A stretch of DNA of 34,730 nucleotides from an uncultured bacterium (lineage in GTDB: Bacteria; Planctomycetota; Planctomycetia; Gemmatales; HRBIN36): positions 1-34,730 of the forward strand of contig CALLZJ010000237.1 of assembly GCA_937858435.1 (NCBI GenBank). Reading direction: 5' to 3'. The position numbers were made by a program, and so were the translations under genes. Below the pieces are notes generated by a model. The model was not told where the DNA came from. It searched no databases and saw nothing but the letters and a program-made list of their open reading frames with translations. Below are positions 4,074-32,739 of the stretch, piece after piece; position 1 is the first letter of the stretch; every line of letters begins with the position of its first letter.

Positions 4074-5027
4074 TCAGGCGGCCCGCTTGCCCCGGCGATG
4101 GAAGAGCTGCTCCTGCCAATGCCATTGGCGGCGCAGTCCCTCGTCGAGGTGAACGTGCGGCTGCCAGTTCACGTGGCGGCGGAGCTTCGTGGTGTCGGCA
4201 AATGTGTGTCGTTGATCGCCGGGCGGGACCGGAGCCATGCGCAGGTGAGCCTTGAGGCCACTGAGCTTTTCCAGCCGCTCGATCACCTCAAGGACGGAGA
4301 CCGCTTCGCCGCCGCCGACGTTGTAGGTCTCGCCCAACTGGGCCTCGAAGGCCGCGGTGATGGCGGCCACGCAGTCAAGGACATAGGTGTTGCCCCGCAC
4401 CTGCTGCCCGTCGCCGTAGACCTGGATCGGCTCGCCGGCCAGCATGGCGGCCACAAACCGGTTGTAGGCCATGTCGGGCCGTTGCCGTGGCCCATAGACG
4501 GAGAAGAAGCGCAGGATCACGAGCGGCAAATCGCCCGATTCCGCATAGCTCTTGCACAGATGCTCGGCGGCCAGCTTGGTGACGCCGTAGGGCGAGACGG
4601 GCCGGGTGGGCAGCGTCTCGTCGCCGGAGGCGAAGCGGCCGTAGACGGAGGAGGTCGACCCGAGGATGAAACGCTGCAGCGTGCCTTGCCGCCGGACCGC
4701 TTCGAGCAGGCGCTGGGTGGCCTGGATATTGCAACCAACGTAGAGATCGAAATCGGTCCAACTACGCATGAGCCCGGGCATGGCGGCCAAGTGAACCACC
4801 ACGTCGGCATCCATGACGCTGCCATCGAGATTGTCGGTCCGCAGGTCGAGCAGCCGGAATCGGAAGCGGGGGTGCCGTTGGCAACTGGCCAGATTCGCCT
4901 CCTTGATCTCCCGAGCATAGTAGGGGATGTAGGCATCGAGGCCGACGACGTCGTGCCCCAGGTGCAGGAGCCGTTCACACAAGTGGGAACCGATGAAGCC
5001 GGCGGCGCCGGTGACGAGCACTTTCAT
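4074..5027 (-). CDS. NAD-dependent sugar-nucleotide epimerase/dehydratase
   Basis: A 317-residue short-chain dehydrogenase/reductase of the extended type, the usual length for UDP-sugar 4-epimerases. The Rossmann nucleotide-binding motif GAAGFIGSH is at residues 7-15, an acidic residue ends the second strand (Asp31), and the catalytic set is SSVYG (126-130) with Tyr147 and Lys151 in YGVTK. The AYIPYYARE segment near residue 32 resembles UDP-glucuronate/UDP-galactose 4-epimerases, but the exact substrate cannot be read from sequence. It should act in the cytoplasm to supply a nucleotide sugar for the neighbouring glycosyltransferases. Its ATG overlaps the stop of the double glycosyltransferase gene (ATGA, 5024-5027), so the two are translationally coupled. 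Confidence 0.88.
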   Translation of the reverse strand: MKVLVTGAAGFIGSHLCERLLHLGHDVVGLDAYIPYYAREIKEANLASCQRHPRFRFRLLDLRTDNLDGSVMDADVVVHLAAMPGLMRSWTDFDLYVGCNIQATQRLLEAVRRQGTLQRFILGSTSSVYGRFASGDETLPTRPVSPYGVTKLAAEHLCKSYAESGDLPLVILRFFSVYGPRQRPDMAYNRFVAAMLAGEPIQVYGDGQQVRGNTYVLDCVAAITAAFEAQLGETYNVGGGEAVSVLEVIERLEKLSGLKAHLRMAPVPPGDQRHTFADTTKLRRHVNWQPHVHLDEGLRRQWHWQEQLFHRRGKRAA

Positions 5028-8014: not shown

Positions 8015-8051
8015 GCGGTCTCCTGCCCGCAGCTTGGGGGTTGGCCTCGGA

Positions 8052-8080
8052 AGTGTAGCCCGCGGAGTCGATTGCTACAA
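8052..8080 (-). promoter_or_regulatory. possible promoter of the glycosyltransferase-epimerase unit
   Basis: On the minus strand TTGTAG (8080-8075) and TACACT (8057-8052) are separated by 17 bases, giving a leader of about 30 bases before the ATG at 8014. The match to the housekeeping consensus is only moderate, so this is tentative. Confidence 0.3.
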
Positions 8081-8140
8081 GGGCAATCCGACCCAGGGAC
8101 CGCAGCCGCAGCGGTGCCGCGGTCGAGTCACAGGCTGCCT

Positions 8141-8165
8141 AAAAAGCGAAGCCGCCCGCGGCTTC
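8141..8165 (-). terminator. intrinsic terminator of the cysteine-rich secreted protein gene
   Basis: A perfect eight-base inverted repeat, GAAGCCGC (8148-8155) and GCGGCTTC (8158-8165), has a two-base spacer. On the minus strand it is followed by GC and five T residues (complement of the A-run at 8141-8145). It lies 46 bases after the stop of the gene at 8212-9582 and separates it from the glycosyltransferase gene. This is the clearest Rho-independent terminator in the window. Confidence 0.8.
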
Positions 8166-8211
8166 GACCGGGGCGGCTCGTGCGATCTCGGGGAGGGCCG
8201 GAGTCGAGTGC

Positions 8212-9582
8212 TTACTTCGGCTTGGAGCCCGAACTCTGGTTCAGCAGATTGAACATCCGCTGGTCCAGGCCGGGGTCCTTCTGGGGCTTGGTCGGCTTGA
8301 ACATGTTCTTGATCTTACCGCTGACGCTGTTGTCCGACGGCTCGACCACGATGTACTGAGGCTGAAGGGCCGGCTGGACGGCAGCGGGTTGGGCAGCGAC
8401 CATGGGCTGATCGTCGAACAGGATCTGCACCTTGGGCTGGGTGCTGGGGTCGGTCGCGGCGGCCGGATAGATCGGCTGCACGTACTGCACGCCATTTGCG
8501 GCCGGGGCGGGCTGCATGAACTTGGCCTGAGCCGGGGCCGCGGGCATCGGAACGGGGTGGAGCCGTTGCGCCGGTGCCGACTGCACCATGACCACGGTCG
8601 GCTGACTCTGAGCGACGGGGCTCAGGCGCGGCTGGGCGGTCGGGGTGGCGTCGGTGCGCACCGAGGCATTGACCAGATCGAACAGGCCCCGCGAACCCGA
8701 AGGCGGCGCCATGCCACGGCGGGCCCGCAGCACTTCCTCGGCGTCCTTGAGCGGATCGCCCGAGGGACGGCGCAGCACCTGCGTGCGGTCCGGCGAGGTT
8801 GGGTCAGCCGGCCGGTCGGGTGAAACCGGATCGGGACGCTTGGGATCGCTGACTTCGCGGTAGCAAGCCACGCAGCGTTCCAGGGCCAGGGCAGCGGCGT
8901 CACGCACGCGCTGGCACTTTTCGGGCTGGACGCGAATCTCTTCCTTGCCGTCCAGGGTGAAGCTCCACATGCCGCCCTGACCGGCCGCCACGAGGGACAG
9001 GGCCGCCATGGTCATCTTGGTGCAGCAGCAGCCCGTCTGCAGGGCCTTGGCTGCTTCCCAGCGGACGCATTCGTTCTTGTCGAAGAGCAGGGCCTCGACG
9101 ATTGCCTTTTCCACTTCGGGCCAGCGCGAGCAGTCGGCGGTCGAGAGATAGCGGATGGCCGCGGCCCGGGCCTTGGCGTTGGCCTCGTCGGCCTTGACCT
9201 TGTTGGCCACGTCCTCGGCGCCGCCGGGTGCTTCCTCGGCGATGCGGGCCAGGTCAGCCGCGCTCGGCATCGTCGGGCAGATGGGCCCGAGCATGCCGCC
9301 CGTGAACGCTCCCATCGGCAGCAGCATGTTGTTGAACAGGCCGCCCAGCGGACATTCGCAGAAGCGGCGGAGGCAGCGCTCCTTGGCTTCCGGACCACAA
9401 CCCAGGAAATCCCACAGGGTGCGGGTGCTGCCCGCGGCCTGCCCCACGGCCTGGGTCGCGCCGGCTGCCGCAGCCGGTGCCGCGGCCGGTCCCCCGCCCA
9501 TGCCAGGCAACTGGGCCTGAAGATGGGCAACCAGCCCCATGAGCACGACCAGGCTCACCGCGCACCGCATCCAAGGTTTCAT
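8212..9582 (-). CDS. secreted cysteine-rich protein with HEAT-like helices
   Basis: A 456-residue exported protein I cannot assign to a characterised family. Residues 1-23 are a signal peptide. A low-complexity Gly/Ala stretch follows, then a cysteine-rich part: Cys62, Cys70, Cys75, Cys77, Cys102, Cys151, Cys172, the triplet Cys185-187, Cys223, Cys237 and Cys240. Residues about 138-200 and 225-240 look like HEAT-type helical repeats (alternating VRWEAAKAL and RDAAALALE helices). The C-terminal 200 residues are Pro/Ala/Gln-rich and probably unstructured. The start has GGGAGGG about eight bases upstream, and a strong terminator follows the gene. It lies inside the exopolysaccharide region, but that does not prove a role there. 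The many cysteines suggest disulfides or metal binding outside the cytoplasm (inference). Confidence 0.75.
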   Translation of the reverse strand: MKPWMRCAVSLVVLMGLVAHLQAQLPGMGGGPAAAPAAAAGATQAVGQAAGSTRTLWDFLGCGPEAKERCLRRFCECPLGGLFNNMLLPMGAFTGGMLGPICPTMPSAADLARIAEEAPGGAEDVANKVKADEANAKARAAAIRYLSTADCSRWPEVEKAIVEALLFDKNECVRWEAAKALQTGCCCTKMTMAALSLVAAGQGGMWSFTLDGKEEIRVQPEKCQRVRDAAALALERCVACYREVSDPKRPDPVSPDRPADPTSPDRTQVLRRPSGDPLKDAEEVLRARRGMAPPSGSRGLFDLVNASVRTDATPTAQPRLSPVAQSQPTVVMVQSAPAQRLHPVPMPAAPAQAKFMQPAPAANGVQYVQPIYPAAATDPSTQPKVQILFDDQPMVAAQPAAVQPALQPQYIVVEPSDNSVSGKIKNMFKPTKPQKDPGLDQRMFNLLNQSSGSKPK

Positions 9583-9825
9583 GAGTTCGTCCCTCCCCGT
9601 GTCCTGCCCAGCCGCTTTTGCCTTGGCTGAGGCTCTTCCTCCGGCGACCTATCCCACGCCGGCAGGCATGCTGCTGGAAATCCCCTCCCCATTCAGTTCG
9701 GCCGCGGGGCATGAGGAACCTTAGGAAATGCGCTGGTTCTGCCGCCTTTGCGCGGAATGCATCAAGCAGCGGGAATGCAAGCGATAGCGTAGGGCCCGCG
9801 TTTGCGTTAACTGCTGGCTCTGAGG

Positions 9826-10608
9826 CTAACGCCACCAGCGGGGCAGCCAGGAGAAGGCGGAGCTCTTGGGAGGAGGCGCGACGCGGAGGGGGAGTCCCTG
9901 CAAGATCGCCAACCCGTTCCCGCCCAGGATGCGATCGGCGGCCGCGCTGCCGACCCATTCGACGACGGTATGGGCGGCGGCGGCCAGGTGGGGTGGCCGG
10001 CGGTCAGGCGAATGGCCATCGGAACCAAGGGTGTGAACCAGCCCACGCCGGAACCAATTCCGCAGGGCCTTCTGCCCGGCCGCTGACTGCATCCGCAGCA
10101 CGTTGGCCGAGGAGACTTGCGTCAAAAGCCCCTGGTCGACCCAGGTCGCGAGCAATTCCGGACTGTGAAGCAGTTCCGGAGTCTGTTCGGGGTGGGCCAG
10201 GATCGGTCGCAGGCCCAACTGGGTGAGCCGCCAAATGGTATGGCCCAGATCCACGAACAGCCCATGCGGCATCTCGATGAAGAGATACTGGCCTCGGTCG
10301 GCGACGCTGAGGAGGCGGCCAGCACTCCAGACTTCGTCGAGGTCGGGGACGACGATGATCTCGGCCCCGAGGTAAACCATCAAGGGCAGATTCTCCGCCC
10401 GCAGCCGCTCGGTGAGTTGGGCGTGGACAGTGCGAATGACCTCGGGGGTCACGTCGGGGTAGAACTCGTTCTGATGGGCCAGTCCGTGGACCGCGTCCAC
10501 GCCTTCATCCAGGAGGATGCGGCACATGGCGACGGCGTCGTCGAGGGTGCGCGGCCCGTCGTCAACGCCGGCGATCAAGTGGCAGTGCATGTCAACGAGG
10601 GGGATCAT
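9826..10608 (-). CDS. CpsB/CapC-type PHP-domain tyrosine-protein phosphatase
   Basis: A 260-residue PHP-fold metallophosphatase, the usual length for CpsB/YwqE proteins. Metal-ligand motifs are visible in order: DMHCHL (6-11), a downstream VDDGP, Glu83 in GAEIIV, His139 in ILAHPE, and SDGH (196-199). The family dephosphorylates the tyrosine-rich tail of bacterial tyrosine kinases that control capsule or exopolysaccharide chain length. It lies 90 bases downstream of the Wzc-type kinase on the same strand, so the kinase is its probable substrate. A GC-rich hairpin between the two genes may lower its expression relative to the kinase. PHP-type phosphatases are best known from Gram-positive loci; Gram-negative Wzc systems more often use a low-molecular-weight phosphatase. 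Confidence 0.87.
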   Translation of the reverse strand: MIPLVDMHCHLIAGVDDGPRTLDDAVAMCRILLDEGVDAVHGLAHQNEFYPDVTPEVIRTVHAQLTERLRAENLPLMVYLGAEIIVVPDLDEVWSAGRLLSVADRGQYLFIEMPHGLFVDLGHTIWRLTQLGLRPILAHPEQTPELLHSPELLATWVDQGLLTQVSSANVLRMQSAAGQKALRNWFRRGLVHTLGSDGHSPDRRPPHLAAAAHTVVEWVGSAAADRILGGNGLAILQGLPLRVAPPPKSSAFSWLPRWWR

Positions 10609-10637
10609 GGCCTGATGCCCATCCGGCCCCCGGGGTA

Positions 10638-10674
10638 AGGAAAGAGGCTCGCGACGGAGAGTCCGCCGCGAGCC
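10638..10674 (-). terminator. GC-rich hairpin between kinase and phosphatase genes
   Basis: GGCTCGCG (10646-10653) pairs perfectly with CGCGAGCC (10667-10674), and inside it CGGA (10655-10658) pairs with TCCG (10662-10665) around a three-base loop. On the minus strand it is followed by TCTTTCC, a weak U-rich tail. It begins 24 bases after the kinase stop. Only 37 bases remain before the phosphatase start, which leaves little room for a separate promoter, so partial termination with read-through fits best. Confidence 0.6.
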
Positions 10675-10698
10675 TGTACGTGACCCGGTACGGGCCGG

Positions 10699-13161
10699 TT
10701 ACTTCTTGCCGAACAGGCCCTTGAACCAGCCACCACCCTCCTGGCGGGGCGCGGTCAGGCTGGGGGTCTCCTCCTCGAGCCGCTCCGCGGAGCGGCGGCG
10801 GGTAGAGGCCTCCGGTGCGTCGCCTTCCTTGTCGCTGTAGTATTCCTCGCCGTGAGCAGAGTAGTAGCGGTCATAGTACTCGTACTTGTACTGGTACGAG
10901 TTGGCGTAGTCGTACTGGCCATAGTTGTAGCCGTACGTGTAGCCGTAACCGTAGCCGCCCTGCGAGAAGAGGTTGATGCCGTTGACCACCACGCCGAGCA
11001 CGTTGGCCCCGAGCGAGGTGAGGATTTCCCAGGCCCGTTCGGCGACCGGCCGGCCGTTGCGCGCCACCCGGATGCACAGGAGCACGCCGTCCACCCGCGG
11101 CGCCACCACGCACGGGTCGGTGACGACCAGCAGCGGCGGCGTATCGAGTAGAACGAAGTCGAACTGTTCGCGGAGCTCGTCGACCAGTTCCTTGAAGCGA
11201 GGCGAGGTGAGCAGTTCAGCCGGGTTGGGCGGATTCGGACCGCACGCCAGGATCGACAGGCCGGGCACGGCCGTGGGCTGGATCGCCTCGTGCAGTTCGC
11301 ACTGGCCCGTGAGCACGGACGTAAACCCGACCTCGTTGGTCACGCCCAGCACCTTGTGAATGCGGGGGCGGCGGAAGTCGGCGTCGATGAGGATCGCCTT
11401 TTTGCCCGACTGAGCGATGGAGACGGCCAGGTTGGTCGACAGGGTCGTCTTGCCGTCGCCCATGTTCGGGCTGGTGATTTGGATGACCTTGTGGCCTTCG
11501 CCACGGGTGCTGAAGTAGAGCGCGGTGCGGACGCCGCGGAACACTTCGGCCTTGCGCGACTTGGGCTTGTAGTAGGTGCAGAGGATCGGGTCGGGTCCGC
11601 CTGCCACGCCTTCGACCTTGGCCCGCTCTTCCTCTTCGGAGAGCAGCGGCGGGATGTGGCCGAGCACGGGCAGATTGAGCCGCCGCCGGATCTCGTCGGG
11701 GCTGCGGAAGCTCTTGTCGGTCACGTCGGCCAGGTAAGCGAAGCCCAAGCCGGACAGCAGACCGAAGAAGGTCGCCAGCGTGAAGACCGTGAGGGCCTTC
11801 GGCTCCACCCGCACCGCCTGGGTCGGCGGCATGATCAGGTCGGCGGCGTAGCCGCCCATGTTCTTCGAGGTGTCGAACTTGGCGATCTGCGTGCAGATGG
11901 CGTCGAACAACTTCTTGGTGCCTTCGATGGCATCGGTCAACTCGTCATCGCGGAGCAGTTGATCCTGTTGCCGTCGCAACTCGGCGGCGAGCAGGTTCTT
12001 CTTGGTCTCCCAGGTCGCGATCTCTTCGTTGATCGATTCGAGTTCGAGCTTGATGGCGGCGAGGCCCGTCAGGATGACACTGCCCGTCGAGTTGCCCTTG
12101 GAGTCCTTGGGCGCTCGCGGGTCGTTGGAACCAGGTCCCTGCTCTTCGCTGGTGACAGCGATCCGTTCGCGCAGGTCGATGATCATCTGGTCGAGCGTGC
12201 GGATGTCGGGGTGGTTCTCGCCCAGTTGGAAGAGGCGGACCCGGCGTTCGCGTTCGAGTTTGCTGAGTTCTTCTTGGAGGGCCAGCGAGGTGCTGGAGCG
12301 CAACTGGTCACCGCCCCAGCGGTGGCTGAGTTCTGCCGAGAGGAGCAGTTGGGCTCCTTGCCAGCGGTCGCTGTTCATGGCCTGTTCGATCTTGCGGATG
12401 CGTGTTTCCTTGGCGATCTGAGTGGCCACGAGCTTGGAGAGGACGTCCTCGATGGCGGCCAGCATCAACTTGCGGGGATCGCGGCCGTCCATCCGCTGGT
12501 CGATCATCGGGTTGAGTCGGCGGTGATCCTTGAGGTTTTCACGCTTGACCTGCATGTCCTTTTCCAGGATGGTGCGGGCCTCGACGAGCTTGTTCTGTAC
12601 GTCCTTGGCCGTTTCGCGGTAACGGTCGGCGAGGTAATTGCGATAGGCTTCGATGATGTGGCGCAGGATGCTGGCACAGTCTTCGCTGACCGGCCCGCGG
12701 AAGGACAGGTCGAGCACGCTGGAGCGATTCGTGCCTTCCCGGGTGTTGCGGACGACCGTCAGGTTTTCGATGATCTGGTTGACGACGGCGTAGGGCTCGG
12801 CGTTGCCCTTGAAGGTCTGCAGGGCGTAGAGCTCGCCGTTCTGGACGGCCATGCCGACGATGAGCGGACTGCGGATGATGAGCGTATGGGTGGCGAGGTA
12901 GTCTTCCATGTAGTACGTCGCCAGGTCCAGCGATACGCCGGTCCCCAGGTCAGGCGTCTTGCGGATGACGTGGATGGAGGCTTCCGACTTGTAGACGGGC
13001 TGCTTCTGGGCGTAGTAGAGGGCGCCGCAGACGAGGCAGACCACCAAGCCCAGGATGACCAAGGACTTGCGTTGCCAGGCGATGCGGTAAATGTTGGCGG
13101 CAGTGGCCAACTCCGGAGCGTCGGTCACGGGGGGCTCAATGCCCTCGGCTTTCCTGATCAT
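10699..13161 (-). CDS. Wzc-type polysaccharide co-polymerase and tyrosine autokinase
   Basis: An 820-residue inner-membrane protein with chain-length regulator and kinase in one chain. Membrane helices at about 33-50 and 457-477 flank a periplasmic domain with long coiled-coil helices (about 180-430). The cytoplasmic kinase has Walker A SPNMGDGKTT (564-573), Walker A-prime ILIDADFRRP (590-599) and Walker B FVLLDTPP (669-676). The tail carries 17 tyrosines between residues 737 and 775, the usual autophosphorylation cluster. An additional 40-residue charged extension ends in GWFKGLFGKK. The family controls chain length and export of capsule or exopolysaccharide through cycles of tyrosine phosphorylation. 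A good promoter lies 59 bases upstream, just after the preceding gene, and a PHP phosphatase gene follows. Confidence 0.93.
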   Translation of the reverse strand: MIRKAEGIEPPVTDAPELATAANIYRIAWQRKSLVILGLVVCLVCGALYYAQKQPVYKSEASIHVIRKTPDLGTGVSLDLATYYMEDYLATHTLIIRSPLIVGMAVQNGELYALQTFKGNAEPYAVVNQIIENLTVVRNTREGTNRSSVLDLSFRGPVSEDCASILRHIIEAYRNYLADRYRETAKDVQNKLVEARTILEKDMQVKRENLKDHRRLNPMIDQRMDGRDPRKLMLAAIEDVLSKLVATQIAKETRIRKIEQAMNSDRWQGAQLLLSAELSHRWGGDQLRSSTSLALQEELSKLERERRVRLFQLGENHPDIRTLDQMIIDLRERIAVTSEEQGPGSNDPRAPKDSKGNSTGSVILTGLAAIKLELESINEEIATWETKKNLLAAELRRQQDQLLRDDELTDAIEGTKKLFDAICTQIAKFDTSKNMGGYAADLIMPPTQAVRVEPKALTVFTLATFFGLLSGLGFAYLADVTDKSFRSPDEIRRRLNLPVLGHIPPLLSEEEERAKVEGVAGGPDPILCTYYKPKSRKAEVFRGVRTALYFSTRGEGHKVIQITSPNMGDGKTTLSTNLAVSIAQSGKKAILIDADFRRPRIHKVLGVTNEVGFTSVLTGQCELHEAIQPTAVPGLSILACGPNPPNPAELLTSPRFKELVDELREQFDFVLLDTPPLLVVTDPCVVAPRVDGVLLCIRVARNGRPVAERAWEILTSLGANVLGVVVNGINLFSQGGYGYGYTYGYNYGQYDYANSYQYKYEYYDRYYSAHGEEYYSDKEGDAPEASTRRRSAERLEEETPSLTAPRQEGGGWFKGLFGKK

Positions 13162-13219
13162 GGCTCGTTCCCCATTTCCCGCGGCAAAATGAACCCAGTT
13201 GCGCGAGGATGACAGTGGG

Positions 13220-13249
13220 ATTATACCCGGCAGCCGCGAAGCCTGTCGG
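13220..13249 (-). promoter_or_regulatory. promoter of the tyrosine autokinase gene
   Basis: On the minus strand CCGACA (13249-13244) and a perfect TATAAT (13225-13220) are 18 bases apart. Transcription would start near 13213 and give a leader of about 50 bases before the ATG at 13161. It lies in the 100-base gap after the WecA-like gene, so the kinase can be transcribed independently. Confidence 0.6.
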
Positions 13250-13261
13250 AAATCCTCAAGT

Positions 13262-14782
13262 TTAGTCAGCGGCCACAGCCAGTGCCGAGGCCGATTTCAC
13301 CGACAACGCCGGATGGGCTTCCGGGCGCTCCGGTGCCGCGAGCGACGCCTGCAGCGCCGACTCGAACTCTTCAATCAACAGGGCGATCTTGGCAGCCTTA
13401 TCCCAGAAGAAGTCGGAGCCCCGGTGTCCGAGCAGTTCCACGCGTCCGACCATGGCCCCTTCGACGGCGATGGGTAGTTCCATCCGCCAGGAAGTGGACA
13501 TTTCCGCATGATCGTCGGCAGGGTTCTCCCAACGGGCATGGAAGCTCGTTTGGTAGGCCGGGGCGTTGATGTCCAGCTTGACTTGGGAGCAGTCGAGGTC
13601 CTGGGCGGCGAGGGTCAGCCGCTCCCATAGGTCGGTCCAGTCGGCGTCGCCCTGCAGGTCCATGGACATCTGCTGCGGCTGGCCCCGCTTGCCGCGGGCC
13701 AGCAGCTTGGTGGTCTGGTGGGCCAGGCTCCTCTTGATGAGTACCAGCTCGACATAGCCAAAGAGCCGTGAGGCCACCAGGATGGAAACCACGATCAGGG
13801 CGGAGAGCAGGGCGTAAAGCTCGCTCTTGAGGAACATGCTCAGCCAGGCGCCCACGACGCAGAGCAGGCACAGGCAGGCCACGGCCACCAGGACCTTGCG
13901 ATGGGATAGCCCGCGGCTGAGCATGCAGTGGTGCAGGTGGCCTCGGTCCGTGGCGTAAATGCTGCGGCCGGTAAGCTTGCGACGGATGATGGCCGCAAAG
14001 GTGTCCATAATCGGTAGAGTCAGAACGGCAAGCGGGGCCGCGAGGCCGATGGTGGCCGTGGCCTTGAGCGAACTCTGGATGGCCAGCACGCCGATGATCA
14101 GGCCGATCAGCATCGAGCCGGAGTCGCCGAGGAAGATCGAGGCCGGCGGGAAATTATAACGGAGGAAGCCGATCAGGGCCCCGGCCAGAACCACGCCGAC
14201 GCAAGCCGCCGTCCAGGATTCGTTGAGAGCAGCGATGAGGCCGAAACCCAGCGTGATGATGATGCCAATGATGCTCAGGAGCCCGTCCATGCCGTCCAGC
14301 AGGTTGAGCGAATTGATCGCCCCGAGCAGGAAGAAGGCCGTGAACGGAATCGCCAGCCAGCCAAGGTTCACGGGCCAATCGAGGATGCGGAAGCTATCGA
14401 CCCGCACTCCCATCATCATGACCAGGCCGACAACGGCCATTTGGCCTAGCAGCTTGTAGCGGCCCCGGAGCTTACCGTAGTCGTCCACGACGCCCAGGAT
14501 CGTGATGAGCACGCTCGCGCCGAGCAGGCCGAGCAGAAACCCGAAGTCCTTGGAAAGGCTATCACGCACTGGGCCCGGTACGGCCCAGGCGGCAAATAGC
14601 GTCAGGGCCGCGGCCACCAGGATCGCCAGCCCCCCGGCCACGGGCATGGGCTTGGCATGGACCTTGCGTCGGCCGTCAGGATGGTCCAAAAGCCCCAGCT
14701 GTGTGGCCAACGCCCGGACGATGGGCGTCAGGGCCAGCGCTAAGGCGCAGCTCAGGACCAGCATGAAGATCAGAACAGTCAT
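13262..14782 (-). CDS. WecA/MraY-family polyprenyl-phosphate sugar-1-phosphate transferase with cytosolic extension
   Basis: A 506-residue integral membrane enzyme expected to move a sugar-1-phosphate from a UDP-sugar to undecaprenyl phosphate, starting a lipid-linked glycan. Family motifs are in order: the DHPDGRRKVH entry (33-42), VVDDYGKLRGR (98-108), NSLNLLDGMDGL (157-168), LGDSGS (218-223) and HLHH (282-285), with about ten or eleven hydrophobic helices to residue 345. Beyond the usual end is a soluble stretch (about 370-480) with strands and a final helix (KIALLIEEFESAL), which looks like a small GAF-like domain; I cannot confirm this. ATG 14782 is chosen because the first membrane helix starts there. 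GGGGAGGAG lies about 11 bases upstream. The frame is open for another 53 codons upstream, but these are not family-like. A long leader precedes it. Confidence 0.9.
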   Translation of the reverse strand: MTVLIFMLVLSCALALALTPIVRALATQLGLLDHPDGRRKVHAKPMPVAGGLAILVAAALTLFAAWAVPGPVRDSLSKDFGFLLGLLGASVLITILGVVDDYGKLRGRYKLLGQMAVVGLVMMMGVRVDSFRILDWPVNLGWLAIPFTAFFLLGAINSLNLLDGMDGLLSIIGIIITLGFGLIAALNESWTAACVGVVLAGALIGFLRYNFPPASIFLGDSGSMLIGLIIGVLAIQSSLKATATIGLAAPLAVLTLPIMDTFAAIIRRKLTGRSIYATDRGHLHHCMLSRGLSHRKVLVAVACLCLLCVVGAWLSMFLKSELYALLSALIVVSILVASRLFGYVELVLIKRSLAHQTTKLLARGKRGQPQQMSMDLQGDADWTDLWERLTLAAQDLDCSQVKLDINAPAYQTSFHARWENPADDHAEMSTSWRMELPIAVEGAMVGRVELLGHRGSDFFWDKAAKIALLIEEFESALQASLAAPERPEAHPALSVKSASALAVAAD

Positions 14783-15326
14783 GGAGTGGACCGCTCCTCC
14801 CCTTGTGCCGCCTGCATCTGATGAAACCAGCGATGAAAAGACCAAGAACTCAGATGCAAGACCAAAGCCAAGGCTCGAAGGTGATGGTGCGCCCGAGGCG
14901 ACCTTTCGACGTTGCCAGCAAGGCCAAAGTTCCGCCCCCACCGCGGCGGCGACCGCCGTTGGTCGGGGTGTCTTGAACGCGTAAAGCCTCTAAGCATGAA
15001 CTGCGCCGGCAACACATCCGTGGACCATCCGCCCTATCCGGGCGGGCATCCAACGTTCACGGAACGTACGTCCGCCAGCGTCCTTGCGGAAGACGTGAGA
15101 CCCTAGTTATACGTTAGCCCGGAAGCCGCGTCAATGGGCCACCCGCAGGTCCAGTATTCGCCCAGGACAGACCCCCCGGCGTGGCTGGCAGCACCGGCAG
15201 CACCATCTTCAAGGCCCAGTCAAGGAGAGTTGGGCAAGAGGCGGCGGCAGTAGGGCCCCAAGGCCGCGCGGCGTTGGAGCCGCCACCGCGTGACATCGAA
15301 GACGTAAGCGGCGGTCGGCAATGGTC
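14783..15326. other. 544-base non-coding region: WecA-like leader and WcaJ-like 3' flank
   Basis: No protein-coding gene is convincing here. It holds the promoter at 15106-15134 and, left of it, a minus-strand leader of about 320 bases. In the leader, CCGCCC (15029-15034) and GGGCGG (15040-15045) form a perfect six-base stem with a five-base loop. GCATCTGA (14814-14821) pairs with TCAGATGC (14850-14857) over 28 bases. A minus-strand frame from ATG 14997 (or GTG 15015) ends at 14779 with an ATGA overlap on the WecA-like start. Its base use at third positions is less GC-rich than the neighbours, so it is a leader-peptide candidate rather than a normal gene. Right of the promoter I see nothing definite. 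Confidence 0.6.
15106..15134 (-). promoter_or_regulatory. strong promoter with long leader, WecA-like gene
   Basis: On the minus strand TTGACG (15134-15129) and TATAAC (15111-15106) are separated by exactly 17 bases, each matching the housekeeping consensus at five of six positions. This is one of the best promoter matches in the window. Transcription should start near 15099, about 320 bases before the ATG at 14782. Confidence 0.65.
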
Positions 15327-16724
15327 TTAGTACGCGTTCTTATTCACGATCCCGTGCCAGATCGTCAGCCACATGATCTTGATGTCGAACCAAGGGTTCC
15401 AGTGAGTGATGTAATAGAGATCGTGCTGAATCCGCTTGCGGAGGGAGGTGTTGCCGCGCCACCCGTTGACTTGGGCCCAACCCGTGATGCCAGCCTTCAT
15501 GGCATGTCGCACCATATAGTTGGGCACGGTCTTGCGAAACTTCTCGATGAAGACGGGACGTTCCGGCCGAGGACCGACCAGGCTCATGTGGCCCGCCAGG
15601 ACATTGAGCAACTGCGGCAACTCGTCCAGGCTGGTCTTGCGGAGGAAGCTGCCGATCGGCGTCCGGCGCGGATCGTCGGCCCGAGCCCAAACTGGACCAG
15701 TCTGAGCCTCGGCATCGACCCGCATGGTTCGGAACTTGAGCATCTGAAACCGCTCGCCGTTCAGCCCGCACCGCTCCTGCCGGAAGAGGACTGGTCCGGG
15801 GCTGGTCAGCTTCACGAACAAGGCGACGGTCAGCATAACAGGGGCCAGCAATACCAGGGCGATCAGGGAGAGGACGACGTCCATGGCCCGCTTGACCGCC
15901 ACGTTGATGCCGTGGTAGGGATTCTCCCGCAGCCCCATGACGGTCAGGCCATCCAGATTGGTCGTCGTGATGGAGACCGCGGCCATGCTCGGCACATCCA
16001 GAACCAGGCGTACGTCGCAGTAGGAGGCTGAGAGCACGTCGAAAACTCGCCGGGCTTCGTGAAAGCGATTGAGGGGCAGGGCGATGAAAACGTGATCGAC
16101 CCGATGTTCCTCCACTAGCCGCGGCAAGTCGCTGATACCGCCGAGGATGTGCAAGTCGCTGGTCCAGCGGCTGGGTTGATCCTCGACGTGGCCCACCGCG
16201 GTCATGCCCGTCCAACTGGCATGGCGTAGGGCCCGGGCCATCTTGCGAGCAATGCGTCCGGTGCCAACAATGAGAGCAGGCTTGGCGTTGACCCCACGTC
16301 GCCGGAGCGAGCGGATGAGCTGCCACCAGATCCGGCGCGTGGCCCAGACCAGGACGAAGCAGGCCGCCAAGAACAGCCCCATAGTCAGCCGGGACTCATA
16401 GGGGTCCTGCTGGTAGAAGATGGCGGCCAGGACCAGGAGCATGAGGAGCCCCGTCCCCTTGGCCACGCTGGCCAGCTCTTCCCGATGACGGCGGAGCCGG
16501 TTCACGTCGTACATGCCGGCCAGGTAGTAGGCGATCGGCCCGAGCACGGCCAGCACCGGCAGGTGGACGAGGCAGTCGCTCCAACTGGGCGTGTTTTTCG
16601 TGACTTCAAGCCAGCCGGTGTGGAAGCGAATGAAGTAGGCCGTCACCCAGGCGACCATGGTCAGGGCGACGTCCCACGCCAAGAACCACAGAATGAGCAC
16701 TTGCCGCGATGGCTTGACGACCAT
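15327..16724 (-). CDS. WcaJ-type exopolysaccharide polyprenyl glycosylphosphotransferase
   Basis: A 465-residue inner-membrane enzyme that should transfer a sugar-1-phosphate (often glucose or galactose) from UDP-sugar to undecaprenyl phosphate. Four N-terminal helices (about 8-32, 52-72, 90-104, 114-128) precede a Rossmann-like domain ([12 protein letters not shown], 150-161). A fifth helix (about 284-304) leads into the catalytic bacterial sugar transferase domain: [15 protein letters not shown] (329-334), [11 protein letters not shown] (366-376), SLVGPRPE (381-388) and [14 protein letters not shown] (411-424). The length and order are those of full-length WcaJ/WbaP-like proteins. ATG 16724 has AAGGA eight bases upstream, better than the 28-codon upstream extension. 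It is the second lipid-linked initiator in this cluster besides the WecA-like protein. Confidence 0.93.
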
Positions 16725-16796
16725 GGTGAGCGTCCTTGCTCTCGAAGCCGGATCATGGGGGCGGCGCGCACGGCTACCCCGGTCCGGACCAGGCTG

Positions 16797-16825
16797 ATTA
16801 CGCGCCACCCCGCCGATTCTGTCAA
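16797..16825 (-). promoter_or_regulatory. promoter of the WcaJ-type gene
   Basis: On the minus strand a perfect TTGACA (16825-16820) and CGTAAT (16802-16797) are 17 bases apart. The start would be near 16790, about 65 bases before the ATG at 16724. Confidence 0.55.
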
Positions 16826-26791: not shown

Positions 26792-28099
26792 ATGTCGTCC
26801 CTCCAGCGTCTGGCCGACAAGGTGAAGGGCTTTCCCGCCAGCCCGGGTGTCTACCTGATGAAGGATGACTCGGGGCGGGTGCTCTACGTCGGCAAGGCGA
26901 AGAACCTGCGAAATCGGGCTGGCCACTACTTCACCCAGCAGGCCCTAGAGGATCGGCGGACGGCCGACCCGGTGCCGCTCCTGGCCGACGTGGAGGTCAT
27001 TCCCCCCGCGACAGAGGTGGATGCGCTGCTGCTCGAAGCCCGCCTCATCAAGGACATCCAGCCGCGCTTCAACGTCGGCCTCAAGGACGACAAGACCTTT
27101 CCCTATCTGCAGATTCGCGTCCGAGAGCCGTTCCCGCGAGTGGAGTTTACTCGCTCTCCCAAGCGCGGCGCCAAGCTCTATGGCCCCTTCACCAGTGCCC
27201 GCAGCCTCCGTGCCGCGATCCAGGTGCTGCAGCGCATCTTCAAGTTTCGCACCTGCAATCTCGACATCGACCCCACCGACGCCAAGTGGCGCTGGTTTCG
27301 CCCTTGCCTCCTCGCCAGCATCGGCCAGTGCACCGCCCCTTGCAATCTGCGGGTTGGCACCGCGGACTACCGGGAGCAGGTGCGCCAGTTGCAGATGGTG
27401 CTCGACGGCAAGAAGGAGGAGTTGATCGCCGAACTCAGGGAGCGGATGCGGGCGGCCGCCGCGGCCCTGCACTTCGAGCAGGCGGCCCAGCTTCGGGACG
27501 ATCTCAAGGCCCTGGAGAACTTGAGCCTGCGTGGTCTGGCCGACAAGGACGTCCAGCCGGAAGTCTTCGTCATGAATCCGAAGCGTGGCGTGCACGGGCT
27601 CAAGAAGGTGCTGCGCCTGGCCGCCCCGCCTCGCGTCATTGAGGGCTTCGACATCGCCCATCTGGGCGGCACCGAAATGGTCGCCAGCATGGGGCAGTTC
27701 ATCGACGGGCTGCCCTTCAAGCCCGGTTACCGGCGCTTCCGCATCCGCACCGTAGAGGGGAACGACGATTTTGCCTCGATGCGTGAGGTCGTCACGCGCC
27801 GCTATCGCCGCATGCAAAGGGAAGAGGCGGTCCTGCCCGATCTGATCCTCATCGACGGCGGCAAGGGCCAACTCACGGCGGCCCAGGCGGCGCTCGAGGC
27901 CCTGGCCGTCCGCAAGCCCGTCCTCATCAGCCTGGCCAAGAAGCAGGAAGAGGTCTACCAACTCGACGCCGACGAGCCGCTCCGGCTAAGCAAATCCTCG
28001 GCAGCCCTGCGGCTCCTGCAGTACATCCGTGATGAAGCCCACCGCTTCGCCCAGCACTACCACCACCTCCTCCGCCGCCGCCGGCTGAGCGATTCGTAG
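26792..28099 (+). CDS. uvrC: compact excinuclease ABC subunit C
   Basis: A 435-residue UvrC, clearly shorter than the roughly 560-610 residues typical of the family. It should make the two incisions around DNA lesions in nucleotide excision repair. The GIY-YIG nuclease is complete (GVYLMKD 19-25, LYVGKAKNLRNR 31-42, Glu82). Four cysteines, Cys155, Cys172, Cys180 and Cys184, match the positions proposed for an iron-sulfur cluster. The UVR helix pair is at about 205-242. The RNase H-like nuclease keeps its DDH set: Asp287 (GFDIAH), Asp355 (LIDGGKG) and His417 (RDEAHRFA). Missing are about 100 residues between UVR and the second nuclease, and the C-terminal helix-hairpin-helix domain. The start lies six bases after the previous gene. 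Confidence 0.93.
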   Translation: MSSLQRLADKVKGFPASPGVYLMKDDSGRVLYVGKAKNLRNRAGHYFTQQALEDRRTADPVPLLADVEVIPPATEVDALLLEARLIKDIQPRFNVGLKDDKTFPYLQIRVREPFPRVEFTRSPKRGAKLYGPFTSARSLRAAIQVLQRIFKFRTCNLDIDPTDAKWRWFRPCLLASIGQCTAPCNLRVGTADYREQVRQLQMVLDGKKEELIAELRERMRAAAAALHFEQAAQLRDDLKALENLSLRGLADKDVQPEVFVMNPKRGVHGLKKVLRLAAPPRVIEGFDIAHLGGTEMVASMGQFIDGLPFKPGYRRFRIRTVEGNDDFASMREVVTRRYRRMQREEAVLPDLILIDGGKGQLTAAQAALEALAVRKPVLISLAKKQEEVYQLDADEPLRLSKSSAALRLLQYIRDEAHRFAQHYHHLLRRRRLSDS

Positions 28100-28135: not shown

Positions 28136-29341
28136 CTAGATACGGCTCATGCTCACGCACCAGCCGAGCACTAGCAGCAGATGCAGGACAATGAACACCA
28201 GAAGGAAGTCGCCGACGGTGAACGGCGCTGGGTTCGTGGTCCCTTGCGTCCGCAGTCGCTGCCAGCGTCGGGCGAGAAACCAGGTACAGAAGAGCGACAA
28301 GCCGATGCCGGCCCCGGCCGGCCCACCTAGGAGGAAGTCGCGCCCCTCGCGCTGCGGCCGGGGGATGAGCAGGATCGGCAGCACCAGCCCGGCCAGCAAG
28401 CCCGTCCAGGTCACCACGGCCCAGGGATGGCTCAGCGGGTGGAACGCGAGAAACCAGTTCACATGCCAGGAGAGCGGTCCGCCCGGTTCGAGGATCAAGT
28501 CCTCGTTCCATGTCGAAGGGGAGCCACTGACTCGAACACGCGTGAGTTGCACGCCGACCGGACCATCCACCATGTCGGCTTCCACCGGCGTGACATGGAT
28601 CCAATGGCGATGCAATCCGGCCGGGGGTGAAGCGAATCCGCGGACGTAGATGTCGGTTCTGATGGGGTCTTTGTAGACCTGCGAAGGCCGAAGCGGGAAG
28701 AAGATGTGGGGCGAAGGAAAGTCGATGCGCATGGCCCTGGCTTCGAGTGGACCCGAGGCCCAGCCACAGACGATGGCGGCCTGCTGCTCCAGATACGGGG
28801 CCAGGCTCCACAGGTCCTTGGCTTTGACGTCGAGTTGTTTGCTCGTGAGGTATTCATCCAAAGCCGACACGGAGACGGCCGAGAGCACCTCGATGGTCAT
28901 GCCGTGCTTCACCACGCGATCATGGACGGTCACGTCGGAGAAGGCGTCCGAAGCCGTTGCGCCAATGAAACTAAGGAGTATGGGGCTGAGTAACAGCCCA
29001 GAATCGAGCAGCGCGAAGGTGAATAGCGTACTGCGCACCCGGTACTCGACCTTGGGCTTGCAGTAGTGGACATGTCGGACTTGAGGCCATTGGGTGACCG
29101 GCTCGGCCTTGACCTGATCCGGAGGCGCGACGATGGGGACGATCCACATCGTGCCCGCATCAACCGACTGGGCGTGCGTCGCGACAAAGAGCCGCTGCTG
29201 CCCCGCGTGCCATTCGATGAAGGCAGCTTGCGTATGTTCGCGGAGGAAGCCGCCCCTTTTGAGAATAAAGCCATCGGCCCACACCCTCGGCGTCACCAGC
29301 GCTAGCAAGCCGAGCGTGGCCAGCAGACGACACGTATTCAT
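28136..29341 (-). CDS. DUF2330-like membrane protein
   Basis: A 401-residue protein with a signal peptide (1-22) and a large external part resembling DUF2330: FIEWHAGQQRLFVATHAQ and MWIVPIVAPPDQV near the start, then LDEYLTSKQLDVKAKDLW and IFFPLRPSQVY. A hydrophobic segment interrupts it at about 105-128. Three membrane helices close the protein (about 307-327, 336-356, 376-395). The function is unknown. ATG 29341 has a GGGGGA sequence about six bases upstream and starts a clean signal peptide; a 49-codon extension is rejected. It converges on uvrC, with 36 bases between the stops, and diverges from the fumarase gene. Confidence 0.75.
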   Translation of the reverse strand: MNTCRLLATLGLLALVTPRVWADGFILKRGGFLREHTQAAFIEWHAGQQRLFVATHAQSVDAGTMWIVPIVAPPDQVKAEPVTQWPQVRHVHYCKPKVEYRVRSTLFTFALLDSGLLLSPILLSFIGATASDAFSDVTVHDRVVKHGMTIEVLSAVSVSALDEYLTSKQLDVKAKDLWSLAPYLEQQAAIVCGWASGPLEARAMRIDFPSPHIFFPLRPSQVYKDPIRTDIYVRGFASPPAGLHRHWIHVTPVEADMVDGPVGVQLTRVRVSGSPSTWNEDLILEPGGPLSWHVNWFLAFHPLSHPWAVVTWTGLLAGLVLPILLIPRPQREGRDFLLGGPAGAGIGLSLFCTWFLARRWQRLRTQGTTNPAPFTVGDFLLVFIVLHLLLVLGWCVSMSRI

Positions 29342-29561
29342 CTTCGATCCCCCTGCGCAACCGCCTATCGGTTCTCGGCTTGGGTTGGCCCACGTGCCGT
29401 CCCAGCGTTGTTGCAGGTCGTTGAGGGGCTGGGGCCGCTGAGCTGGTGAATGGGTGGTTGGAAACGGCACGACCTCCCCACACTTCAAAGCGCCAGCGGG
29501 CCAGTGTCAAGCGGATTTGCCTTGGTTCCATACCCAATGCCCAAGAGGGGCCGTCGGCCGG

Positions 29562-29567
29562 TAGAAT
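29562..29567 (+). promoter_or_regulatory. possible -10 element of the fumarase gene
   Basis: TAGAAT stands out in a very GC-rich stretch, 31 bases before the fumarase start. No acceptable -35 element is seen at 16-18 bases. The same octamer TAGAATAG occurs at 24036-24043, before the dnaJ-type gene. Confidence 0.35.
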
Positions 29568-29598
29568 AGCCGCAGCCGTTCTTCCTCGGAGTCCCGCC

Positions 29599-31134
29599 AT
29601 GAATCGCGATGCCTTCTTCAAGCAGATGCTCGAACTCGTTCGCCGCACCTCGGCCTTCCTACCGCCCGACGTGGAGAGCGTGCTGGCCATCCGCCAAGCG
29701 CTGGAGAATCCCGGCTCCAAAGCCGACCTTGCCCTGCGCCTGGTGCTGCAGAACATCGGCCTGGCCAAGCGCTTCTCCGCCCCCATCTGCCAGGACACCG
29801 GCACCATAGGCTTCTACATCAAGACGCCGGTCGGTTTCGATCAGCTCGCACTGCAGGAGATCTGCTGCGATGCCGTGGTCGAGGCCACGCGCAAGGGCTA
29901 CCTGCGGCAGAACTCCGTGGACAGCCTCACGGGCCGGAACACGGGCAACAACCTGGGCGCGGGCAGCCCCGTCTTCCACTGGCATCAACATCGGCACGAG
30001 ACGGTCGACGCGCGGCTCATCCTCAAGGGGGGCGGCTGCGAGAACATGTCGGCCCAGTATTCGCTACCCACGACAATCAATGGCAAACGTTGCGACCGCG
30101 ACCTGGAGGGCGTCCGTGACGTGGTGCTCGATGCCATCTGGCAGGCGCAGGGCAAGGGCTGCGGGCCGGGCTTCATCGGCGTTTGTATCGGCGGGGACCG
30201 GGCCCAGGGCTACGACTTTGCCAAGGAGCAACTGCTGCGCACCGTGGAGGATGTGAACCCGGTGCCCGAGCTGGCCGCCTTCGAAGACCGCATCATGAAG
30301 GATGCCAATCAGCTCAACATTGGCCCCATGGGTTTCGGCGGCAAACTGACGATCGGCGGCTGCAAGATCGGAGCGCGGAATCGGCTGCCCGCCAGCTTTT
30401 TTGTCAGCGTCGCCTACATGTGCTGGGCCTACCGCCGGCGCGGCGTCGTCCTCGATACCAAGGGCAACGTCCAAGATTGGCTGTATCACGCGCCCGGCGA
30501 GTTCGACCATGAACCCGAGCCGACCTCGAACGTCGTCGACCTGGGGAACAAGGTGGCGCCGGGCGAGCGGATCATCCCGCTCACGCTGCCGCTCAGCGAG
30601 GCGGACGTGCGGAGCCTGCGGGCCGGCGACGTGGTCATGTTGAGCGGCATGGTGCTCACGGGCCGGGACGAGGTCCACAAGTTCCTGTTCAAGGGCGGCG
30701 ACGTCCCGGCCATGCAGGGGGGCGTGATCTACCACTGCGGCCCTGTCGTGCTGGAGGAAGGGGGCAAGTACCGGGTGGTCGCGGCCGGGCCGACGACCTC
30801 CATCCGCGAGGAGCCCTATCAGGCGGACGTGATTGCCCGCTACGGCATCAAGGCGGTGATCGGCAAGGGGGGCATGGGGGCCAAGACGCTGGCGGCCTGC
30901 AAGGAGCACGGCTGCGTCTACCTGCACGCCATCGGCGGCGCGGCCCAGATCTATGCCCAGTGCGTGACCGACGTGCCGGGGGTGTTTCTCAAGGAGAAGT
31001 TCGGCAGCCCCGAGGCCGTCTGGCAACTCGTGGTCAAGGACTTCCCGGCCGTGGTGACCATGGACGCCCACGGCCGCAGCCTGCACGCCGAGGTCGCCGA
31101 CGCCAGCAAACAGGAACTCGCAGGGGTGCTGTGA
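29599..31134 (+). CDS. class I (iron-sulfur) fumarate hydratase
   Basis: A 511-residue single-chain class I hydro-lyase that interconverts fumarate and malate in the citric acid cycle. The N-terminal alpha part contains APICQDTGTIGFYI (near 61-74), the GKGCGPGFIGVCIGGD region (186-200) and SFFVSVAYMCWAYRR (267-280). Cys64, Cys188 and Cys275 are the probable ligands of the 4Fe-4S cluster, assigned from spacing only. The beta part starts near residue 330 with LRAGDVVMLSGMVLTGRDEVHK, followed by HCGPVV, GPTTSIREEPYQ and IGKGGMG. The related L-tartrate dehydratase cannot be fully excluded. GGAG lies about eight bases before ATG 29599. It is transcribed alone. Confidence 0.92.
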   Translation: MNRDAFFKQMLELVRRTSAFLPPDVESVLAIRQALENPGSKADLALRLVLQNIGLAKRFSAPICQDTGTIGFYIKTPVGFDQLALQEICCDAVVEATRKGYLRQNSVDSLTGRNTGNNLGAGSPVFHWHQHRHETVDARLILKGGGCENMSAQYSLPTTINGKRCDRDLEGVRDVVLDAIWQAQGKGCGPGFIGVCIGGDRAQGYDFAKEQLLRTVEDVNPVPELAAFEDRIMKDANQLNIGPMGFGGKLTIGGCKIGARNRLPASFFVSVAYMCWAYRRRGVVLDTKGNVQDWLYHAPGEFDHEPEPTSNVVDLGNKVAPGERIIPLTLPLSEADVRSLRAGDVVMLSGMVLTGRDEVHKFLFKGGDVPAMQGGVIYHCGPVVLEEGGKYRVVAAGPTTSIREEPYQADVIARYGIKAVIGKGGMGAKTLAACKEHGCVYLHAIGGAAQIYAQCVTDVPGVFLKEKFGSPEAVWQLVVKDFPAVVTMDAHGRSLHAEVADASKQELAGVL

Positions 31135-31227: not shown

Positions 31228-32739
31228 TCATCCGAGGTAGGACTGCCGCATGGAGCGGAGCATGGCGAGGGCGGGTTTGATCTGGCCCTCGGCGTCGACG
31301 AGCCCCGAGTGTGGAAAGACGTGGGGGTGGGCGTCGCACCAGTGGCTCCAGTGCAGGCCGGTGACGTAGGGCTTGCACAGAACGAGGACGCCGGCATCGT
31401 CGGCGAAGCGGGCCTGGATGTCCGCGTCCCAGGCCCCGGGGTTGACGGCGTAAGCGGCTTCGGCGTGCGGGTCGGCGTCGGCGGACGAGGGCATGCCCAG
31501 GTTCACATGGATGGGCACGGCCAGGAGGGCGTAGAGGTCCAGAAGCCGGGACAGATCGAGCCGATCACGGGGCTGGCTGCCACGGACCGCACTACCGACC
31601 TGCACTTCCAGTTCCAGGTAGCTCATGCGGATGCGGCTGCGGAGCAGGGCATCGGCAAAGACGAAGGGTGAGATAGCCCGGTAGCCTTGGGCCACGGCTT
31701 CGCCCCACGGCTGCGCCAGCGCGATGGCGTATTCGCCTGTGGGGTTGATCTGCTCGGCCGAGGTGAGGAGTTGGGCATTGAGCGTCAGCGCTTCTTCGTC
31801 GTCCAGTTCCAGGGTCGTGGGATCGTTGCTCCCGGCGGTGAGGAGCCAGCCCCGGGCGTCATTGCGATAGCGCATCAGGGCGGCTTCGAGGAAGTCGAGC
31901 ATCTGACCGGCCATGCGCTGCGGATCGCCGAGGACCTCGGGCAGCCACGGGGGCAACATGTTAGGGGCCATGTCGAAGAGCGGCCCGATCTCAAACGGCA
32001 TTCCGACGAGCTTGGCCCAGGCCAGGAGTGCGTCGAACGCCTCCCAGCGATACTCGCCCATGGTGGCCTCGACCTGGCCCCAGGGGAGCGGCAGCCGGAG
32101 CAGCGAGAAGGAAGAGGCCAGTTCACGGATGTGGTCGGGATTGATGATCGGGCTCGCGACGGTGCAAGACACGTGGGCCGGCAACTTCGGTGTGCGCGCC
32201 AGCCGGGCTGCGAGCACCTGGGAGACATAGGTGGCCACCAGTTCGTCGCCGGTCTTGAGGGCGAACTGCAGGGCGGCGGCAGCCAACTCATCGGCGCGGT
32301 CCGCCGCTTCGCGTTCGCAGACGGACCGAGCGAAGGCCTTGCTCGCCTCGCGGATGGCGTCGTCCAGTTCGGGCGGCAGTTCCAGACCACCCGTCTGCCA
32401 GTCGGCCGCCTGGTTGCGGAGCTGATTCACCTTGCCCCGGGCGAGTTCGACGAGCAGCCGGTAGCTCTGGTCGCGCTCGACGAGCGTCGCCGTGGTGAGC
32501 ATCAGGGGCTGAGAAGCCGGCCAGGTGCGCAGGCCATTGTCGCTCGGTGCCAGGGTCCAGGGCACGCACAGGCAGCCGCTTTCGGGGACTTCCTTCTCGG
32601 CGGTCATCTGACCGTGCGAGACGGTGATAGCCGTTTGCCAGGGCATGTAGTCGGGCAGGCCGAGAAAGTAGCTGGGCTCCAGCGCCTTGGAGGCGTCGGG
32701 CGCGAGCGTCGAAGGCAAACGCAGGTTGACCACACCCAT
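31228..32739 (-). CDS. GH10-like TIM-barrel protein, probably degenerate active site
   Basis: A 503-residue protein whose second half resembles family 10 glycoside hydrolases (xylanases). Residues 228-260 match the YxWxxxDxxxxWAxxxGMP segment. SYLELEVQV (373-381) sits where the nucleophile strand ITELDI is expected, with a glutamate kept. Residues 455-495 match the C-terminal pattern KPYVTGLHWSHW...SGLVDAEGQIKPAL. At the place of the acid/base motif (DVVNE) the protein has GWLLTAGSND (297-306), without the glutamate. The first 185 residues look like beta-sandwich structure plus a helical stretch. No signal peptide is evident. It may bind or modify polysaccharide, or be catalytically inactive; both are inference. 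It is convergent with the fumarase gene. Confidence 0.75.
   Translation of the reverse strand: MGVVNLRLPSTLAPDASKALEPSYFLGLPDYMPWQTAITVSHGQMTAEKEVPESGCLCVPWTLAPSDNGLRTWPASQPLMLTTATLVERDQSYRLLVELARGKVNQLRNQAADWQTGGLELPPELDDAIREASKAFARSVCEREAADRADELAAAALQFALKTGDELVATYVSQVLAARLARTPKLPAHVSCTVASPIINPDHIRELASSFSLLRLPLPWGQVEATMGEYRWEAFDALLAWAKLVGMPFEIGPLFDMAPNMLPPWLPEVLGDPQRMAGQMLDFLEAALMRYRNDARGWLLTAGSNDPTTLELDDEEALTLNAQLLTSAEQINPTGEYAIALAQPWGEAVAQGYRAISPFVFADALLRSRIRMSYLELEVQVGSAVRGSQPRDRLDLSRLLDLYALLAVPIHVNLGMPSSADADPHAEAAYAVNPGAWDADIQARFADDAGVLVLCKPYVTGLHWSHWCDAHPHVFPHSGLVDAEGQIKPALAMLRSMRQSYLG

Follow-up and report, generated by a model that had tools for sequence, protein, structure and literature searches.

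The window, by which we mean the whole 34,730-nucleotide stretch of DNA analysed here, carries on its minus strand, at 31228–32739 (stop codon included), an open reading frame without internal stops for a 503-amino-acid putative GH10-like pseudoenzyme. The protein belongs to a single-copy, two-domain family that is widespread in at least two classes of Planctomycetota, Phycisphaerae included. Sequence comparison shows GH10 homology, the absence of both catalytic glutamates in nearly all members read, one copy per genome and a single clade, and the loss of GH10 catalysis is well supported. Taken as a whole, the family would best be read as a cytosolic pseudoenzyme derived from GH10, which may bind sugars or glycolipids as a partner in making the envelope (lipid A), a reading to which we give about an even chance.

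The C-terminal domain, residues 184–503 (31231–32190, minus strand), is a GH10-type (beta/alpha)8 barrel according to AF2 modelling, Foldseek, VIA and hhalign. The AF2 model of the barrel (from about residue 184 to residue 503) has a mean pLDDT of 94.9, and its VIA superposition on the GH10 xylanase AcXyn10A (PDB 8b73_A) gave a Z of 28.5 and an rmsd of 3.8 over 307 aligned residues. Structure prediction followed by superposition on GH10 was the check that the initial annotation had proposed, and it bears out both a recognisable GH10 barrel and an N-terminal part of about 185 residues ahead of it. The 50 best Foldseek rows were all GH10 xylanases or designs on GH10 scaffolds. GH1 barrels score Z values of up to 25.4 against the same model in VIA, so the fold by itself is not GH10-specific. 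Sequence profiles give the same family: the profile of alignment A1 (59 relatives), compared by hhalign with six GH10 sequences from relatives of the window organism, scored 99.8% (E 1.2e-29, 298 columns), and the 59-sequence profile matched GH10 xylanases in the PDB at E 3e-18. Searched alone, the window protein matched no Pfam family at E ≤ 1, so PF00331 was not hit directly; it found one chance-level NCBIfam model (E 0.11) and weak PDB matches headed by GH10 xylanases and designs built on them (best E 0.066).

Other barrels of clan GH-A, such as GH42, GH35 and GH1, resemble the family in sequence models (GH42, GH35) or in fold (GH1), but GH10 is closer in Pfam, the PDB profile search, Foldseek and VIA. 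Pfam Glyco_hydro_10 was matched by 57 of the 59 members at E ≤ 0.1 (best 6.4e-14), GH42 by 31 (best 2.7e-6) and GH35 by 6, whereas NCBIfam ranks a GH35 model first (43 of 59 members, best 6e-7), with a xylanase/feruloyl esterase model matched by 14. Membership of the clan is thus certain, with GH10 as the best-matching Pfam family. With GH10 xylanases (PF00331) the window protein has in common the barrel fold and its length, the WxxxEPxxGxYxW and RYxxxxxxW segments, and the C-terminal KPA pattern, in agreement with the GH10-like C terminus described earlier. Those xylanases keep both glutamates and the GHxxxW segment; in the window family, the acid/base Glu is replaced, the nucleophile is missing and GHxxxW is altered. 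The family also differs from them in having no hydrophobic leader, an N-terminal addition of about 185 residues and a single copy per genome across classes.

In the window protein, Gly303 (31831–31833, minus strand) occupies the end of strand 4, the position of the acid/base Glu in GH10. The GH10 WDVVNE segment is replaced there by W298-LLTAGSND, W298 pairing in hhalign with the Trp of that segment and Gly303 with the acid/base Glu, which upholds the earlier observation that DVVNE had given way to another sequence; none of the 59 rows of A1 has E or D at position 303. The nucleophile Glu is missing between Asn413 and Leu414 (31498–31503, minus strand), as seen in the raw segments and in the hhalign alignment. 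Strand 7 comprises residues 410–415 in the model (PIHVNLGMP), and against the GH10 ITELD strand the gap falls exactly at the nucleophile; the strand order of the model, read by DSSP, agrees with the profile alignment. The nucleophile strand had been called recognisable, but the likely candidate for it, YLELEVQV (374–381, LELEVQ), is strand 6 by DSSP, and strand 7 has no nucleophile Glu. The GH10 segment GHTLVWHSQ after strand 3 has also changed, its His to Gly252 in 59 of 59 rows and its Trp to Asp256 in 43 of 59. A catalytic glutamate at the proper place, which would have refuted the earlier description, was sought and not found. The description of the protein as an intracellular, perhaps non-catalytic xylanase relative fits the evidence, except that it is more degenerate than was proposed, with both glutamates missing and GHTLVW altered.

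The same state extends to nearly all relatives. Among 116 distinct relatives (each covering no fewer than 250 model columns and read together with its insertions), 112 have neither Glu, two have both (L092 and L094), L093 has the acid/base alone and L089 the nucleophile alone; within the 112, an Asp directly precedes the nucleophile place in L147, and the segment is short in L082 and L133. In a call-set of 80 named-genome loci, which overlaps with the 116, every locus has G, A or S at position 303, and the 78 with a readable strand 7 (76 fully covered plus 2) lack the nucleophile Glu. The nucleophile place is missing in the window protein and the other sequences with 12-residue segments (99 of 116) and is filled in 49 of the 76 covered loci (A 32, G 8, S 6, L 2, K 1); most Phycisphaerae-type members have a substitution there, and the window protein and most of its class have a deletion.

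The N-terminal part (residues 1–183; 32191–32739, minus strand) was modelled by AF2 as residues 1–186 alone, with a pLDDT of 94.7, and consists of a small beta domain (about 1–90) followed by three helices (95–182). Y93, E98 and R101 are invariant across 59 rows (alignment A3). Foldseek found no PDB match for it at E ≤ 0.001, its profile found none in the PDB below E 0.17, and the VIA matches were mostly to helices (best Z 9.1 over 72 residues) and give no evidence of kinship. The hydropathy of the window protein peaks at a 15-residue mean of 0.46 within the first 45 residues, with no hydrophobic leader, and over the 59 proteins the same scan reached at most 1.35, again with no leader evident. 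This simple hydropathy test, which is not a signal-peptide predictor, concurs with the reported lack of a signal peptide.

The initial annotation had suggested that the protein would be a new variant; instead of a one-off, we found a widespread single-copy family. Of 119 close genomes, 103 have a single-copy match, and the window's genome is one of them; G026 and G031 each show two pieces, which largely cover separate regions of the query, and certain other matches are fragmentary (64 residues in G101, for example). A profile search of the 16 genomes without a match detected no copy, and 5 of them are at least 90% complete. In two genomes with no copy (G021 and G062), the contig ends at lpxI, where the gene may have been cut off. 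In a phylum sample of 294 genomes, 45 had profile matches at E ≤ 9e-43, and 28 more had weaker ones (3.6e-16 and above) that we took as other GH10-like proteins. Three of the 45 strong carriers (G177, G242 and G394) belong to a branch with one or two of the glutamates, which leaves 42 Glu-less carriers; the catalytic positions were read in 38 of these and inferred from kinship in 4 (G151, G192, G283 and G319). A scan of named genomes gave no matches with the single protein as query and 96 loci with the narrower alignment A4, of which 80 were kept: 78 are titled as Planctomycetota lineages, mostly Phycisphaerae, and the other two as Alphaproteobacteria and Cyanobacteria MAGs (titles taken as given). 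Locus L202 of this set is 100% identical to the query L055, whose genome belongs to the window's phylum, so that phylum is Planctomycetota. The profile searches covered Planctomycetota and the named-genome scan used A4, and these counts do not imply restriction to the phylum.

In a FastTree phylogeny of 55 barrels, the Glu-poor core formed one clade (support 0.978), and the core together with L092, L093 and L094 formed a larger one (support 0.985, rooted on a GH10). These three, with one or both glutamates, are the nearest outer branch. L092 (7025–8620, minus strand, in G394) and L094 (5791–7302, plus strand, in G177) encode GH10-like proteins with both glutamates, in the motifs WDIINE/WEIVNE and ITELG/ITEMG, and may be living relatives of an active ancestor. 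L092 combines both glutamates with the N-terminal part of the family (hhalign 96.0%, E 3.8e-9), whereas L094 has both glutamates and an N-terminal part for which hhalign found no relation to that of the family (1.8%); the window family has neither Glu. L093 (G242), of the same branch as L094, has a Lys at the nucleophile place (ITKMG), so there may have been more than one loss of the nucleophile. L089 (G239) lies in the Glu-less clade, yet its nucleophile place is occupied by Glu (VSELK); the acid/base Glu is absent. Because L089 is inside the core with a strand-7 Glu, the loss of catalysis may not have been a single step. The simplest history suggested by these sequences would be that a two-domain GH10 lost catalysis and was then inherited within the phylum.

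Among the genes next to the family, those of lipid A synthesis stand out in one lineage. The close genomes with a match include 80 of family f2 (103 minus 7 of f1 and 16 of other families), and 59 f2 loci were fetched with flanks. In 42 of these 59, from 18 genera, the order is lpxD-lpxI-gene, on the same strand and directly adjoining, with a median gap of 150 bases between the lpxI stop and the start of the match; 14 of the 42 come from one genus. The two families were named through NCBIfam for a representative locus (L069), LpxD scoring over its cut-off and LpxI (E 6.8e-41) under it, and in G088 and G101, too, the sequence immediately upstream of the gene matches Pfam LpxI_C. The remaining 17 f2 loci have no lpx neighbour, and all 17 genomes carry LpxI elsewhere. 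The lpxD-lpxI pair was upstream in none of the other 42 among 101 loci examined, the window included; in the window genome, lpxI is on another contig (C419) behind an lpxD-like ORF, and the GH10-like gene is absent there. The next commonest neighbour family in the 101 loci is a protein kinase (by eye, 25 loci), in a ranking that leaves aside two opposite-strand ORF clusters resembling an antisense reading of neighbours. The gene order in f2 makes lipid A the first candidate; since that order occurs in f2 only and the neighbours differ elsewhere, the lpx link rests on one family, and we regard it as tentative.

Co-occurrence points in the same direction. LpxI was detected in 70 of the 294 phylum genomes, and all 42 Glu-less carriers are among those 70, an association with Fisher p values of 2e-32 by genome and 1e-8 by family (11 of 11 carrier families vs 22 of about 93) that ignores shared ancestry. 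The carriers fall in two large clades, so the co-occurrence amounts to very few independent events and may reflect shared ancestry. The 28 LpxI genomes without a Glu-less gene comprise 27 lacking a strong match and G394 with its intact relative, and one close genome (G006, 87% complete) has the gene and no LpxI match. In some bacteria, lpxB follows lpxI, in the position taken here by the GH10-like gene. We rejected replacement of LpxB as a role: Pfam LpxB was found in 276 of the 294 phylum genomes, which gives no contrast, and in the window genome. As LpxB and LpxI are both present there, the GH10-like protein need not replace either.

The altered pocket bears on whether the protein is still an enzyme. 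Its strongest new features are the motif Q-P-W-G-[ED]-Y, which follows strand 5, and Asp469, which follows strand 8. In the window protein, they appear as Q343-P-W-G-E347 at the end of strand 5 (31699–31713, minus strand), with Ala in place of the Tyr, and as D469 (31333–31335, minus strand). Of the 116 relatives, 109 have E or D at position 347 and 97 have one of these at 378; D469 is kept in 106 (and in 59 of 59 rows of A1) and D392 in 106. The 40 most conserved barrel positions are enriched on the catalytic face, delimited by hand from DSSP (25 of 144 positions vs 15 of 177 elsewhere, p 0.018), but mean conservation is not higher in the catalytic-face loops (0.503) than in the barrel (0.507). 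Read from the alignment, this pattern fits a pocket still in use, for binding or for other chemistry. The protein could accordingly be an enzyme with an active site rebuilt in the old GH10 pocket from conserved acidic residues close to where strands 5 and 8 end (E347 and D469), possibly with D256, E378 or D392. That it is kept as a single copy per genome in at least two classes also favours such an enzyme; however, D256 and E378 vary among distant members, and 5 of the 80 named-genome loci lack E or D at 347, three of these having Leu at 469 (misalignment possible). We consider a rebuilt enzyme unlikely, though worth keeping in view. Far less probable is a GH10-type glycosidase that is still active and whose catalytic residues have been misaligned. 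The motifs of L092 and L094 would suit it, as would the 25 of 116 sequences with E or D at strand-7 position 411 (PLEVV; His in the window protein), a few residues ahead of the nucleophile place, which we did not count as a nucleophile. Yet L092 and L094 stand outside the core, position 303 is never acidic in A1, a Glu fills the nucleophile place only in L089, L092 and L094 of the 116, and the modelled strand order matches the alignment.

The neighbourhood outside f2 allows a third alternative, in which the protein has a structural or regulatory part in some other process, the lpxD-lpxI adjacency is an accident of one lineage, and purC and a comEA-like gene mark the older neighbourhood. In 11 loci, drawn from six families both within and beyond the window's class, a divergent purC (identity assigned from one representative) lies no more than 400 bases from the gene. 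Of the 80 named-genome loci, 60 have full flanks, and in these Phycisphaerae-type loci a comEA-like gene is downstream in 52 and a divergent purC upstream in 32. Since purC is transcribed away from the gene, it may reflect conserved position only. In a separate neighbour analysis, the comEA-like cluster was seen in seven loci (L086, L087, L088, L090, L091, L097 and L099), none of them of the window's class. We judge this alternative to be distinctly unlikely. The comEA-like gene itself, seen in L202–L281, encodes a helix-hairpin-helix protein, and its label comes from a comE model match under the cut-off of that model.

Under the preferred reading of a GH10-derived cytosolic pseudoenzyme, a two-domain GH10, with its N-terminal beta/helical part and barrel, would have lost the acid/base Glu by substitution and the nucleophile Glu by substitution in most Phycisphaerae-type members and by deletion in the window protein and most of its class. 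The loss would have come before the lineages split, the barrel then being kept as a single-copy protein. It would no longer cleave glycosides by the GH10 mechanism, but its altered pocket could still bind a ligand that contains sugar. It might take part in cell-envelope synthesis as a partner or regulator without catalytic activity, the likeliest point being the glucosamine lipid precursors that LpxD and LpxI make for lipid A. The role of the protein is probably important. That a glycoside hydrolase barrel has been turned into a dead or re-equipped cytosolic lipid A component, near-universal and perhaps essential in Planctomycetia and Phycisphaerae, is a broader proposition that we regard as doubtful. 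The chitinase-like lectins of GH18 are also glycosidase barrels without chitinase activity, some of which bind sugars, although they belong to another family and are not known as bacterial core proteins. To our knowledge, bacterial glycosidase pseudoenzymes kept as a single copy across whole classes are rare. In the portions of the literature on conserved Planctomycetes proteins and on pseudoenzymes that our search covered, no description of the family was found.

If the lpx link holds, the family would point to a component of lipid A synthesis that has so far been overlooked. The pathway matters in this group: in Planctopirus limnophila, almost all lipid A genes (lpxABCDKL) are essential (PMC10632474), and the same paper gives 108 essential proteins of unknown function as phylum-specific. 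Where CAZyme counts place such proteins in GH10, they would exaggerate the use of xylan by Planctomycetota. Among the GH10 counts for Planctomycetes genomes in PMC4807772, Rhodopirellula baltica has 17, a number that may or may not include the family.

In the window, the gene is solitary, with no same-strand partner adjoining. Its end converges with a fumarase gene (29446–31134, plus strand), and its start diverges from a PSCyt1/PSCyt2 gene that runs from 32903 onward on the plus strand. Membership of a xylan-degradation locus was rejected on account of these neighbours and of the absence of Pfam GH10 matches at E ≤ 0.01 in the genome, and the relation to xylan implied by the earlier xylanase label finds no support. 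A decaying gene was rejected as well: the reading frame is open in nearly all matches (a single TAA, in G052), and the protein is 51% identical to its nearest relative over residues 1–502.

Elsewhere in the window, the UvrC encoded at 26792–28099 (plus strand) is only 435 amino acids long; its GIY-YIG, UVR and RNase H domains were matched, and no C-terminal helix-hairpin-helix domain was found at E ≤ 0.01. A 450-amino-acid ORF at 28136–29488 (minus strand) has a weak DUF2330 match (E 0.0014, under the model cut-off). The region 5024–16808 resembles an exopolysaccharide cluster: it includes, at 10699–13161 (minus strand), a gene for a Wzz-like chain-length protein with an ATPase domain (Pfam Wzz and AAA_31), and beside it are ORFs that by eye resemble glycosyltransferases, a PHP-type phosphatase and lipid-phosphosugar transferases.
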